From Methanolobus psychrotolerans (GTDB lineage: Archaea > Halobacteriota > Methanosarcinia > Methanosarcinales > Methanosarcinaceae): a stretch of 43,736 nucleotides of DNA. The DNA is taken from positions 1 to 43,736 of the forward strand of contig NZ_MBKP01000029.1 of assembly GCF_002243045.1 (NCBI RefSeq), read 5' to 3'. The notes under the pieces were generated by a model. The model made no database searches and had not been told where the DNA came from. It worked only from the letters and a program-made list of their open reading frames with translations. Shown here in pieces: positions 1,339-43,736 of this stretch. The stretch's first letter is position 1. Each line of letters opens with the position of its first letter. The position numbers and the translations under genes are program-made.

Positions 1339-1754
1339 CTCACATTCCGCATGTCAACTTAAAATCTAAACACTTTTAATGTAACCGGTTCATTTCATCC
1401 TCATGATCATCTGAGGGGATGAATCAACCGCATGAAAATAACTACAAGATCACTTGCCCATCTGGTCATGGTACTATGCTTATTCCTTTATTCAATTGCG
1501 CAATGGAAATTGAGGACAAAACTAAAGAAGACAGGATATTTTGTCAAAAACCAGGTAGAAAAACCGGTGCAAAATCCTACGATGAGATGGATTTTCTTCC
1601 TTTTCAGGGGAGGTGCTGAAGTTGAGATTGTGATTGAGGCAGCAGTTGAAACAAAGGTGGCAAATATGAAAGATGAATTATGGCAGATATTGGATCTGAT
1701 GGGAGAGGAATGTAGAAAGTATTATATTTGAGGTGAGACCTGCGGAATGTGAGA
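1339..1754 (+). mobile_element. IS1634-type element remnant with both terminal inverted repeats
   Basis: CTCACATTCCGCATGTC at 1339-1355 and GACCTGCGGAATGTGAG at 1738-1754 form a 17-bp inverted repeat with one mismatch. Between them is only the C-terminal end of an IS1634-like transposase. The arrangement is a roughly 416-bp internal-deletion derivative that keeps both ends, i.e. MITE-like and potentially mobilisable in trans. No flanking target duplication is obvious. Confidence 0.65.
1432..1731 (+). pseudogene. IS1634-family transposase, C-terminal remnant
   Basis: The 99-residue frame resembles the C-terminus of IS1634-family (DUF4277-associated) DDE transposases. It shows a hydrophobic 'VMVLCLFLYSIAQWKLR' helix, then 'FVKNQVEKPVQNPTMRWIFF', and ends in 'ECRKYYI', as family members do. 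About 450 upstream residues with the catalytic acidic residues are missing, so it cannot be active. The ATG at 1432 is probably fortuitous. It lies entirely inside the 17-bp inverted repeats, which supports one deletion event. An overlapping frame from 1419 is a shadow. Confidence 0.7.
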
Positions 1755-1843
1755 TTCATCAAATTGATAATCCCCACAAAGCCATATAGTGACCTATTTT
1801 TATAAACGAAATCCATTCTTGTATCAAAATAGAAGCACATAGC

Positions 1844-2062
1844 ATGAAAATAATGGCATTTAAGGGAAGTCCCTTGAAAAATGAGAATAATGCAACACTT
1901 CGGGAGTACGCGCTTAAAGGAGCAGAGACAGAACTGATCCACCTTGTTGATTATACCCTGACTTCCGCCTTTTTAGGCGCATACGCGTCTCTTGATGTGG
2001 AAATATGTGCTTATATTTTACAACATTATTCCGTTTGGCAAGAAGTAAAAATCAAATTCTAG
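1844..2062 (+). pseudogene. Truncated flavodoxin-like NADPH-dependent FMN reductase / iron-sulfur flavoprotein
   Basis: The first ~40 residues (MKIMAFKGSPLKNENNAT, then LREYALKGAETELIHLVDYTL) match the N-terminus of archaeal iron-sulfur flavoproteins/NADPH-dependent FMN reductases. These have a beta-strand followed by the flavin-phosphate loop GSPxKxxNTATL. After about residue 40 similarity stops: the expected CxxCxxC iron-sulfur segment and the remaining ~150 residues are absent, replaced by unrelated sequence up to the stop. The phosphate loop also has Asn-Ala where Asn-Thr-Ala is usual. A decayed gene beside an IS remnant is the simplest reading. Confidence 0.6.
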
Positions 2063-2223
2063 TGGCGTTTTCTATTTACATCTCCTGCTGATATGCGCTT
2101 AAAACTTGGGAACTCAGGTTATACCGTTATCGAGTAAGCTTGATATAAAGTGCAAAATTCACATCTATACTATTAAAAAATCAAAACCTATCAGATATAG
2201 ACGACAACGATTAAAATACAGAT

Positions 2224-40707: not shown

Positions 40708-40912
40708 TTTAGAACTTTCCTTTTCCTTTCATTGATCTCCTATAGCTCTTTAGCCTCATGAATTTGCCTAGAACTTTTTTCCTTTTGATTTTAGCTAATA
40801 CTTTTGAAGTTTTTCATAAAAATGGTGATTGTTCACACTATTGGATTCAACAATGATCTTAATTCAATAGATTCAATCCTCTAAATCAATTATCTTAGGA
40901 TTAAGTTCCGCA

Positions 40913-41321
40913 AAACCTGCAATGGCATTGCTAAAACTATGCCATAAAACTCGCAAATCAAAGTACTATGTAATGGACAAGGGATACGATTCGGAATATA
41001 TATATATATTCGCTAACAAGAGAGCAACTAGATGCGATAGCTATGATTCCTTTGAGACAAAGAAAAAGAATCAAAGGTAAGTATCGTAGAAAAATGGTAT
41101 GAGAATTTGATGAAGAATTATATCATAACAGAAATCTGGTTGAAACGATGTTCTCTGTTCTAAAACGAAAATATGGGGAAGAAATCAGAGCTAAAAAGTA
41201 CTGGAATCAAGCAAAAGAGGTTAAATTCAAGTTATTAATCCATAACCTTGACAGATATGTCAAGGTTATATTTATTATTCAAATGAGGATTTCTACAGAG
41301 CCTGCATTTGAATATCATTGA
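40913..41321 (+). pseudogene. IS5-family transposase, C-terminal part, frameshifted
   Basis: Two frames together read as an IS5/ISH-type transposase C-terminus: 'KTRKSKYYVMDKGYDSEYIY' in one, then 'REQLDAIAMIPLRQRKRIKGKYRRKM', stop, '[36 protein letters not shown]' and '[13 protein letters not shown]' in the other. The frame changes at the (AT)n tract at 40995-41009, a likely slippage site. An in-frame TGA at 41100-41102 replaces the usual Arg codon of 'REFDE'. Everything N-terminal is missing. It is dead, and it marks the left side of the archaeocin island. Confidence 0.8.
41242..41269. repeat. Perfect 12-bp inverted repeat
   Basis: ATAACCTTGACA, loop gata, TGTCAAGGTTAT, followed by an AT-rich run. 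It lies in the 3' part of the IS5-type pseudogene and about 55 bases beyond the stop of the convergent CcdA gene, so it may now work as a transcription end for the cassette. Confidence 0.55.
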
Positions 41322-41323
41322 GA

Positions 41324-42346
41324 TTAAGTAAATAATATCCATCCTCCAATGAGTACCAATATTCCACCGCTTATAATTTTAACATATGTTCGATATTCAC
41401 GAATCTGCTTTGATAAAGTATATCCGCCTACCAACCCAACACCAATAAATGGGGTAAGTATGCCGATTGAAAATGTAAATAATAACACGATGTTTCCAAA
41501 TGTTCCCTGATCAACTGTATTATTAAATAATACCAATAACATTGGTAAAGTACATGGAACTTTTACAAAGGAAAACAATATTCCTAATAAAAATAGTCCT
41601 GATATAGTACGTACATATTTTTGAGCTATGTTTTGAAAATATACATCGAAATGAATAGGAGTTTTGATTATTCCGATAAAAGATAATCCAATCCCAATTA
41701 CAATTATTCCGACAATAGATGAAAATATGGTTAAATCTGGAAGTGTTTGTTTAAATATAATCAACATTGTTCCAATTACCATATATGCTACAATCAATCC
41801 GCTTCCAAATATAAGGGCATTAAACATACCACTTCTTGATGATGTGCTTGTGCCTGCAGTAAAACTTAAGATAAATCCAAGTATTGCCATTAAGCATGGT
41901 GACAATCCTGCAAATAATCCAAATGTATAAGCCATGATAATATTCATAGGCTGATCATCATTTTCATGTATAATTGGCATATCGTTATTTTTGTAGATGG
42001 GCATTGAATCATTGTTGAGATGCATATCAATTGCAGATTGTAGCGACTCTTCGGTTATTTCGATACGTGAAATTATAGTATAATTGTTTACTACGATAGC
42101 AGGTACATCATAAAATGAATATTGCTTCCATTCTTCAAACCCAGATACAGTATTGACATTTATCTTTGTAATAGTGATATTATCATTTTGGATTTCAATT
42201 TGATTAATAATTGGTTCAGATAATTGACAATCAGAACATCCAGGTTGATAGAAGTATCGAATTTCAACAGGTTGAGCAGATACACTAAATGTCATTGAAA
42301 ATAGTAAAATTATAGTAATTAACCCAAATAATTTCGCATTTAGCAT
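41324..42346 (-). CDS. Secreted thioredoxin-like domain fused to CcdA/DsbD membrane domain
   Basis: The 340-residue protein has a signal peptide (residues ~1-24, ending SVSA). An extracytoplasmic thioredoxin-like domain follows (~26-112) with active site CSDC at Cys37/Cys40 and the cis-Pro segment 'YDVPAIVV'. A polar linker leads to a CcdA domain with six helices (~135-340). The paired membrane cysteines Cys151 ('GLFAGLSPCLMA') and Cys265 ('VKVPCTLP') carry electrons across the membrane. The layout is a mini-DsbD, for disulfide exchange outside the cell. It ends an operon-like run behind a ten-cysteine secreted peptide precursor, so its likely job is folding that peptide (inference). GGAGAA precedes the ATG. 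Confidence 0.88.
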   Translation of the reverse strand: MLNAKLFGLITIILLFSMTFSVSAQPVEIRYFYQPGCSDCQLSEPIINQIEIQNDNITITKINVNTVSGFEEWKQYSFYDVPAIVVNNYTIISRIEITEESLQSAIDMHLNNDSMPIYKNNDMPIIHENDDQPMNIIMAYTFGLFAGLSPCLMAILGFILSFTAGTSTSSRSGMFNALIFGSGLIVAYMVIGTMLIIFKQTLPDLTIFSSIVGIIVIGIGLSFIGIIKTPIHFDVYFQNIAQKYVRTISGLFLLGILFSFVKVPCTLPMLLVLFNNTVDQGTFGNIVLLFTFSIGILTPFIGVGLVGGYTLSKQIREYRTYVKIISGGILVLIGGWILFT

Positions 42347-42376
42347 GATATCAAATTCTCCATATACGATCGTAGT

Positions 42377-42580
42377 TTATTGTATTAAGAAAATGTAAAT
42401 TAACCCACCAATTAAGTAAACAAGTGGGTACATTAATGCATTAATCGGGGTTTTGTTTATTTCTCCAAAAGTGTACCATATACCAACATATTTTTTTGGT
42501 TTATATTTCCGAAGATAGAATGGATATTGAGTTAGTAAAATCATTATAAATACGGACAATAGTAAAGAACCAAGCAACAT
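42377..42580 (-). CDS. Small two-helix membrane protein, candidate immunity protein
   Basis: The 67-residue protein has two transmembrane helices (about residues 2-20 and 47-66) joined by a basic loop (RKYKPKKY). No family is recognised. Small basic two-helix membrane proteins beside bacteriocin genes often give immunity, and this one lies between the halocin-like precursor (92 bases downstream of it) and the thioredoxin-CcdA gene (30 bases upstream of it), all on one strand. The role is therefore guessed from position only. A ribosome binding site GGAGAT lies about 8 bases before ATG 42580. Confidence 0.6.
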   Translation of the reverse strand: MLLGSLLLSVFIMILLTQYPFYLRKYKPKKYVGIWYTFGEINKTPINALMYPLVYLIGGLIYIFLIQ

Positions 42581-42625
42581 ATTATTTAAATCTCCAATGT
42601 TTAACCATGCGATTCACAAAAAATA

Positions 42626-42657
42626 ATATTTACCAATGGGATTCCATTGGTAAATAT
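42626..42657. terminator. Perfect 14-bp hairpin behind the archaeocin gene
   Basis: ATATTTACCAATGG, loop gatt, CCATTGGTAAATAT, placed 16 bases beyond the precursor stop. It has no T-run of its own but lies in AT-rich sequence. It could be an intra-operon terminator or an mRNA-stabilising hairpin that lets the precursor be made in excess over the downstream proteins. Confidence 0.6.
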
Positions 42658-42672
42658 AACATTGTTATATAT

Positions 42673-43437
42673 TTAACAATACTGTGAACAGGCAATGTCG
42701 ACAGTGTTATGTGTTCCATATATGCACAATACAATGAATACAGCTCCACATATTGGTCCACATGCAGGAAATGCAGGACCTGTAAATGCTGCACAACCAA
42801 GCGCGCAAGTAGCTATGCCAGTCAATCCACACCCAATACCATAGATATAGTCATACATACTTTTACAGATGTCACAATCCATACTCGTTGACTCCATGGT
42901 TGCATTCAGATTCTTTGAAACAGCCAATTCTCCATTCAGATATAGGTTACCATTCTTGTTCTCAACAATTGTTTTCTTTTCAACACCATTGATGAATTCA
43001 AAAATATCTGCTTTTCCATATCCATCTTTTATTTCAATAACCATGTTACCAACCATGGTTGTTTCTGTATTTGAAATAAATAGAACTTTGGCTGTGTTTT
43101 TAGTATCATCTGATATTGCAGGTATGGTTACAATTGTTGTTTTTGGCGCATCAATAGTCTTTGGTTCTATTGTTTGAACGACCATGTCGCTATATTGTAC
43201 CTCAAATCCCTTGTCTTGGATATCTTTGATCACAGTTCTTGCGTCTTCATCAAGAGTCATATCCAATAACGCGCTTAATTCACCAAGGCTCCCCTCAGTC
43301 TCAATTGTAAAATTTTCTGCAATACCTGCTTCAAGTTCTGACATTGATTTTGGTACACATGCTGATGCTGGAATTGTCAGTGCAATCAATAACATCATGG
43401 TTACAAAAATGGTACCAACTTTAGATTTTATGTTCAT
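42673..43437 (-). CDS. Halocin C8-like archaeocin precursor
   Basis: The 254-residue precursor has a Sec-type signal peptide (MNIKSK..., hydrophobic to about residue 23, ending PASA before Cys27). A hydrophilic middle region follows (~28-180, strand-rich, no cysteine), and then a C-terminal core of about 68 residues. The core has exactly ten cysteines at 188, 191, 203, 211, 215, 226, 230, 238, 250 and 254, among Gly/Ala/Pro-rich hydrophobic stretches ('GIGCGLTGIATCALGC', 'PACGPICGAVFIVLC'), ending CSQYC. Halocin C8 of haloarchaea is likewise released from the C-terminus of a long precursor, has ten cysteines in five disulfides and opens with CxxC; its N-terminal part gives immunity. The precursor here uses Sec, not Tat. 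Confidence 0.82.
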   Translation of the reverse strand: MNIKSKVGTIFVTMMLLIALTIPASACVPKSMSELEAGIAENFTIETEGSLGELSALLDMTLDEDARTVIKDIQDKGFEVQYSDMVVQTIEPKTIDAPKTTIVTIPAISDDTKNTAKVLFISNTETTMVGNMVIEIKDGYGKADIFEFINGVEKKTIVENKNGNLYLNGELAVSKNLNATMESTSMDCDICKSMYDYIYGIGCGLTGIATCALGCAAFTGPAFPACGPICGAVFIVLCIYGTHNTVDIACSQYC

Positions 43438-43490
43438 TCTTTGTTTACCTCGTTTAACTATTCAAGAGGCAAGGTTACCCAAACTTTAAA

Positions 43491-43501
43491 CTATATTAAA
43501 G
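43491..43501 (-). promoter_or_regulatory. Putative TATA box of the archaeocin precursor gene
   Basis: Minus-strand CTTTAATATAG lies 54-64 bases before ATG 43437, predicting transcription from near 43465 and a short leader holding the GAGGTAA ribosome binding site. The IS66 end begins only 6 bases upstream of it, so the natural sequence upstream of the TATA box has been replaced by the insertion element. Confidence 0.45.
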
Positions 43502-43506
43502 CAAAC

Positions 43507-43736
43507 GTAACTATTCAGCCTAGCTCCCTTCCACCAAGCTGATTTCTCTCTCTACGATCAATTCTGCAATATTGGAATAAGTGAACCCTCATAGAATATT
43601 GCATTAATTGAGTCTATAACAGACATGGAATTCTTGCTAACAGTAGAAACGTATCCTCTTATCCGGCAGAAATTTCTCGCACCTTGTTCACTACGGAAGG
43701 TACCGGATATCTTCTGTTGTACTTTCGTCATTCTGA
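43507..43736 (-). mobile_element. IS66-family element, transposase 3' end (partial, runs off right edge)
   Basis: The inverted repeat GTAACTATTCAGCC plus a diverging tail to 43532 (CCTTCC shared with the other end) marks the outer end. The transposase stop is 26 bases inside it. The element is oriented so that transcription runs out of it into the archaeocin gene. The eight bases outside this end (aagcaaac) differ from those outside the left-edge end (atttttct), so the two ends do not share a target duplication. Confidence 0.82.
43558..43736 (-). CDS. IS66-family transposase, C-terminal fragment
   Basis: On the minus strand the frame reads 'RMTKVQQKISGTFRSEQGA', then 'RNFCRIRGYVSTVSKNSMSV' and 'IDSINAIFYEGSLIPILQN' to a TGA at 43558-43560. 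'KISGxFRSxxGAxxFCRIRGYxSTxxKNxxxVxDSIxxxF' is the diagnostic C-terminus of IS66 transposases. The rest of the gene is beyond the right edge. No defect is visible in this part. Confidence 0.88.
   Translation of the reverse strand, partial: RMTKVQQKISGTFRSEQGARNFCRIRGYVSTVSKNSMSVIDSINAIFYEGSLIPILQN

Follow-up and report, generated by a model that had tools for sequence, protein, structure and literature searches.

A putative archaeocin cassette with its own thioredoxin-CcdA protein in Methanolobus psychrotolerans

Three genes lie at positions 41324-43437 of the window (the whole stretch of DNA analysed, 43,736 nucleotides of a Methanolobus psychrotolerans contig), all on the minus strand and in the order precursor, 67-aa protein, thioredoxin-CcdA fusion (Trx-CcdA). 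The first-pass annotation had proposed a three-gene, same-direction cassette here, and all three open reading frames are present at the place and in the order that it gave. A GGAG or GAGG ribosome-binding site precedes the ATG of each gene, the gaps between the genes are 92 bases (precursor to 67-aa gene) and 30 bases (67-aa gene to Trx-CcdA), and the G+C content of the cassette stretch is 32%, compared with 40% in the rest of the window. The leader/promoter region (43443..43513, minus strand) is 71 bp long and AT-rich, with a TATA-like box and a GAGG before the ATG. Between the precursor and the 67-aa gene is a terminator- or attenuator-like hairpin with a T-run (42626..42657, minus strand); read along the transcript (42657..42626), it consists of a 14-bp stem followed by TATTTTTTG, with a folding energy of -17 kcal/mol. 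This hairpin weakens the case for simple co-transcription of the cassette, and the 67-aa gene and Trx-CcdA may be expressed through read-through past it, not equally with the precursor. Broken transposase-like ORFs, recognised by eye and without a Pfam match, lie to the left of the cassette (40900-41321, plus strand).

The precursor gene (42673..43437, minus strand) encodes a 254-aa, halocin-C8-like, Cys-rich prepropeptide of the Sec type, as judged from its ORF, its TIGR04450 and TIGR04449 matches and its homologs. A signal peptide of approximately residues 1-26 (43360..43437), with a cleavage site placed by eye between ASA and C, precedes a pro-region of about 160 residues (approximately residues 27-185; 42883..43359), delimited from alignments and from the TIGR04450 match to residues 132-238. 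The presumed mature peptide, defined by Cys positions and the ranking of cores, is a C-terminal core of approximately residues 186-254 with 10 Cys (42676..42882). Cysteines are at positions 27, 188, 191, 203, 211, 215, 226, 230, 238, 250, and 254, ten of them within the last 67 residues, and this prepro architecture with a 10-Cys C-terminal core of about 70 aa is that expected of the halocin-C8-like class. Against NCBIfam, the precursor reaches 23.3 bits with TIGR04450 (an immunity/bacteriocin fusion model; E 4.1e-5, cut-off 27 bits) and 14.6 bits with TIGR04449 (the halocin C8 domain; E 0.05, cut-off 24 bits), whereas the cassette relatives L073 and L069 clearly exceed the TIGR04449 cut-off (48.2 and 42.8 bits); the window precursor is therefore a divergent relative of halocin C8 that falls short of scored membership in the family. 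Motif scans of genome_contigs and viral_contigs using the precursor alone gave no matches, a PDB search returned no similar chain at a useful E-value, and the AlphaFold2 model is of low confidence (pLDDT 45).

The 340-aa Trx-CcdA (41324..42346, minus strand), assigned from its ORF, PF13386, and orthologs, is an exported thioredoxin domain fused to a CcdA/DsbD_2 membrane domain. It starts with a signal sequence, followed by a thioredoxin-like domain (approximately residues 27-110; 42017..42268) with a CSDC motif at 37-40; this domain is placed by a weak match to Thioredoxin_3 (PF13192, E 1e-3, under its cut-off) and a low-confidence AlphaFold2 model of the protein (pLDDT 44), in which the thioredoxin part has a beta-alpha-beta pattern. 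The six-helix domain (41339..41932), which contains Cys151 and Cys265, matches DsbD_2 (PF13386) over residues 139-336 (E 4.5e-10, 40.2 bits against a gathering threshold of 24.9). Residues C37, C40, C151, and C265 are invariant across 22 orthologs, and the protein thus combines a thioredoxin CxxC with a pair of redox cysteines in the membrane domain, one per half, as expected of a reductant transporter. In its six-helix DsbD_2 domain, two membrane cysteines, extracytoplasmic thioredoxin fusion, and four invariant redox cysteines, it resembles DsbD/CcdA proteins, but its thioredoxin domain is N-terminal and genome context ties it to peptide cassettes. Matches to Trx-CcdA in 185 genomes of the order fall into two groups: a close subfamily, with E-values of about 1e-90 or better, and another, widespread family at about E 1e-30. 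The active site is mostly CHDC in the former and CLKC in most members read of the latter. The Methanolobus psychrotolerans genome encodes both kinds.

Between these two genes, the 67-aa gene (42377..42580, minus strand; supported by ORF and homologs) encodes a candidate immunity protein, a basic membrane protein (5 K, 1 R, 1 E) with a pair of hydrophobic helices. No Pfam or NCBIfam profile matches it, and its family shares the core motif YPFYLxKYKPxxYxGxWxxxGExxxxPxxA, with Y19, P20, F21, Y22, K27, Y31, G33, W35, G39, P45, A48, and P52 invariant in nine sequences. The gene is present in 7 of 111 Methanosarcinaceae genomes; a scan with the family alignment found 2 loci in genome_contigs and none in viral_contigs, and plasmid searches with this protein and with Trx-CcdA gave no match.

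The same three genes occur in the same order in another genus of Methanosarcinaceae (genome G002; loci L003, L046, L059), with identities to the window proteins of 37% (precursor), 46% (67-aa protein), and 51% (Trx-CcdA). The shared gene order and the again 67-aa length of the small protein argue that the cassette is more than a chance arrangement. An artefact of spurious ORFs was considered and rejected, since the full cassette is conserved across genera. To look for linkage, precursor-like ORFs were defined as same-strand ORFs within 4 kb with an N-terminal hydrophobic stretch and seven or more Cys among the C-terminal 100 residues. Such ORFs are found at 18 of 24 close Trx-CcdA loci, at none of 20 loci from the other family, and at none of 20 loci drawn at random from cassette-bearing genomes, counts that are not independent because the loci are phylogenetically related. 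Two of the six close loci without an ORF passing this heuristic (L068, L076) have truncated or frameshifted precursors. Among the 111 Methanosarcinaceae genomes, 21 contain both a precursor and a close Trx-CcdA, 2 the precursor only (a remnant in G024 and a fragment in G074), 2 the Trx-CcdA only, and 86 neither (Fisher p 2.6e-18, a statistic that ignores shared ancestry). The co-occurrence of precursor homologs with Trx-CcdA, which the first-pass annotation had proposed as a check, is therefore strongly positive, and the neighbourhoods read, only partly annotated, did not show the placement beside cytochrome-maturation genes that it had named as contrary evidence.

More distant full-length Trx-CcdA orthologs (42-44% identity) extend to three further families of the phylum. 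Four of ten such loci have an upstream Cys-rich precursor with cassette genes between (L242, L245, L249, L250), three encode proteins with a precursor-like leader (L244, L246, L247), and no precursor was found at the remaining three (L241, L243, L248). L242 has a type B core; L245, L249, and L250 have a type C core and, in the same gene order as L065, L066, and L070 of the Methanosarcinaceae, run from precursor through lipoprotein and six-helix protein to Trx-CcdA. Many cassettes, including those at L048, L066, and L071, are disrupted by stop codons, frameshifts, or insertions and lie beside intact ones, pointing to fast turnover.

At least five kinds of core are associated with Trx-CcdA: a C8-like kind, the window kind, and at least three others without a named family (for core types B, C, D, and E, no match to a named bacteriocin family exceeds its cut-off). 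The Trx-CcdA tree follows taxon and not core type, with at least five core types beside one Trx-CcdA clade, and near-identical Trx-CcdA proteins are found beside differing cores (L073 versus L064; L070, L068, and L071). The genes between precursor and Trx-CcdA, on the other hand, go with the kind of core: type D with a small membrane protein of 95 aa, or one like it, and a 391-aa protein, type E with a 103-aa three-helix protein and a lipoprotein. This taxon-wise Trx-CcdA and core-wise set of small genes is what one would expect if the maturation enzyme were shared and the immunity gene cognate to its core. A second cassette in the Methanolobus psychrotolerans genome (L082, G000:C21, 466-3604, minus strand) encodes a 212-aa type D Cys-rich precursor, a 66-aa two-helix protein, a 392-aa protein, and Trx-CcdA, and its 71-bp leader/promoter is 97% identical to that of the window cassette. 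Precursor leaders are also alike across core kinds, and together these similarities suggest an exchange of cores behind a common front. The contig ends next to the two cassettes (window 43505-43736 and L082 4887-5115) are 97% identical, and the repeat at both ends resembles by eye the C-terminus of an IS66-type transposase, a short fragment without a Pfam match; the assembly probably breaks at this shared IS66-type-like repeat. At L079 (3107-4354), a 415-aa protein upstream of Trx-CcdA combines a precursor-type leader with a different, less Cys-rich C-terminus, which would be like a polymorphic-toxin swap of the C-terminal part.

The immunity role that had been proposed for the 67-aa protein gains indirect backing. 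When cores were ranked against the window core, the top three were exactly the three others with a 67-aa gene directly after the precursor, suggesting that this small membrane protein goes with one type of precursor and is encoded next to it, as in the immunity class; simple common descent of the operon could also account for this pairing. A precursor of the window's core type followed by a 67-aa homolog is also present in another family (G133; L057). A Methanococcoides genome (G024; L004, L045, L060) has a precursor cut down to 73 aa and no Trx-CcdA downstream, yet its 67-aa gene is intact, with 85% identity to the window copy and a pairwise dN/dS of about 0.2 against it. Such retention without a complete precursor would suit an immunity gene. 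Besides full cassettes and decayed precursors, the contexts of the 67-aa gene include positions between other cassettes (L075, L077) and positions directly after an ABC-2 permease/ATPase pair (L055 4395-6291, L056 4049-6181) in genomes without a precursor match. This last context may reflect resistance or export, and L055 and L056 are candidate stand-alone resistance loci.

The halocin C8 precursor (ProC8) is reported to use the Tat pathway for export (PMC11509114), and a twin-arginine motif is clear in at least 8 of 10 haloarchaeal C8-like precursors read. None of 28 methanogen precursors has the [STND]RRxPhi motif, and the window precursor lacks an RR motif altogether. A search for TatC gave no match in several cassette genomes (G017, G033, G035, G036, G062, G104, G109); TatC is present in the Methanolobus psychrotolerans genome. 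No Trx-CcdA was found within the stretches read around haloarchaeal C8-like loci, and two loci of other lineages (L128, L129) have C8-like precursors with Sec-like signals and no Trx-CcdA nearby. Halocin-C8 loci without Trx-CcdA, some of them Sec-like, indicate that this protein is not universally needed. VKOR was found in 1 of 90 Methanosarcinaceae genomes, and DsbB was not found in the genome of Methanolobus psychrotolerans. Folding outside the cell after Sec export would explain a dedicated redox partner.

Taken together, the cassette is probably (we estimate about 0.74) a modular methanogen bacteriocin (archaeocin) operon, with a constant disulfide-shuffling Trx-CcdA and a swappable toxin with its cognate immunity gene. 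In the scheme that we infer, the precursor would leave the cell unfolded through the Sec pathway and lose its signal peptide, and the Cys-rich C-terminal core would form about five disulfides outside the membrane. The CcdA cysteine pair would relay cytoplasmic electrons to the exported thioredoxin domain, which, held reduced, would reshuffle wrong disulfides. A general extracellular protease would then free the core of about 70 residues, which might attack related archaea, while protection of the producer would fall to the 67-aa membrane protein, possibly helped by the pro-region. The whole would work as a kit in which Trx-CcdA is constant and the precursor core and the adjacent small membrane genes are swappable. 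The system had been described as self-contained; this is too strong, since the cassette includes neither a dedicated exporter nor a dedicated protease. On balance we also favour a wider, previously unrecognised platform in the Methanosarcinaceae and at least three other families of its phylum, in which one Trx-CcdA lineage would serve as a universal extracellular shuffling module for at least five unrelated-looking, leader-sharing cores. These cores would be swapped in the manner of polymorphic toxins, each bringing its own small membrane immunity genes, and the system would replace the Tat export and cytoplasmic folding of haloarchaeal halocins.

Several features of this reading can be explained otherwise. 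CcdA is known from cytochrome-c maturation, and a separate Trx-CcdA family is widespread in the genomes searched, so that the protein might be a general cytochrome-c or envelope redox protein placed beside the precursor by chance or co-transfer. This is highly improbable, as Trx-CcdA presence tracks precursor presence across the 111 genomes, the window's own genome has both kinds, and the association recurs in other families; the absence of precursors from all 20 other-family loci, against 18 of 24 close-family loci, led us to reject cytochrome maturation as its main role. It had been left open whether Trx-CcdA oxidises or isomerises the peptide. The scarcity of VKOR and the lack of a DsbB match imply that another oxidant is needed, and an oxidase that passes electrons inward and forms disulfides could provide it. 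However, characterised CcdA/DsbD proteins normally carry reductant from the cytoplasm, the more reducing side, outward; an oxidase is thus unlikely, and isomerisation is the likeliest role and the better fit of the two.

The remaining alternatives concern the peptide and its small neighbour. Toxicity is itself part of what we infer, and with core types B, C, D, and E outside the named bacteriocin families, the Cys-rich proteins might be secreted signalling, adhesion, or metal/redox-buffering proteins with a thiol-redox partner. We regard this as quite unlikely, since C8-type members score above the halocin C8 domain cut-off, and the loci combine a conserved leader with very variable cores, often decay, and carry small cognate membrane genes, a pattern typical of bacteriocin systems and not of housekeeping proteins. 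Somewhat more plausible, yet still doubtful, is that immunity resides in the pro-region and that the 67-aa protein aids export or anchors Trx-CcdA. HalI, the halocin C8 counterpart of the pro-region, is an immunity peptide and a precedent for this (PMC11509114); C8-type precursors at L047, L048, and L069 directly precede Trx-CcdA with no gene between, and the ABC-2 neighbourhoods of L055 and L056 would suit an export role. On the other side, the 67-aa gene goes with core type, whereas a generic export factor should track Trx-CcdA or the leader, and it is kept at L060 despite the truncated precursor and absent Trx-CcdA.

Modular archaeocin operons of this kind would have both known and new elements. 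Sublancin with BdbAB is one bacteriocin operon with its own thiol-disulfide oxidoreductase. Another is pediocin PA-1, whose thiol oxidoreductase PedC raises pediocin potency (PMC4919988); it shares with the cassette an oxidoreductase and an immunity protein (a candidate here), but is bacterial, with a separate oxidoreductase, no CcdA electron feed, a dedicated ABC exporter, and fewer disulfides. Halocin C8 (HalC8-HalI; TIGR04449, TIGR04450) is likewise an archaeal prepropeptide with a long pro-region and, at the C-terminus, a Cys-rich core of some 70 residues and 10 Cys; it differs from the window precursor, which is Sec-type, not Tat, with a core diverged to below the family cut-offs, and which has a small membrane protein and then a Trx-CcdA encoded downstream, the latter not found at halocin-C8 loci read elsewhere. 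The first-pass annotation did not recognise the combination as described, and this holds in part: halocin-C8-like peptides, the two TIGR families, and bacteriocin operons with thiol oxidoreductases are already known, while a dedicated coupling of Trx-CcdA with an archaeal bacteriocin was not found in the literature searched, which lacked a key survey of archaeal antimicrobials. To our knowledge, hardly any work has been done on the peptide weapons of methanogens, and this kind of Trx-CcdA now provides a genomic marker for finding candidates even when the core is unrecognisable. The cassette also points to a testable way in which a strict anaerobe in which no VKOR or DsbB was found could fold secreted peptides with five disulfides, and suggests that the choice between Sec and Tat export decides the need for an external disulfide helper. 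At L058, in a distant family of archaea, a 194-aa protein with 15 Cys (GVGCLGVCCYVAPPLCPTCAWLC...; 1614-2198, minus strand) that matches no known protein family is encoded three genes upstream of a 67-aa homolog.
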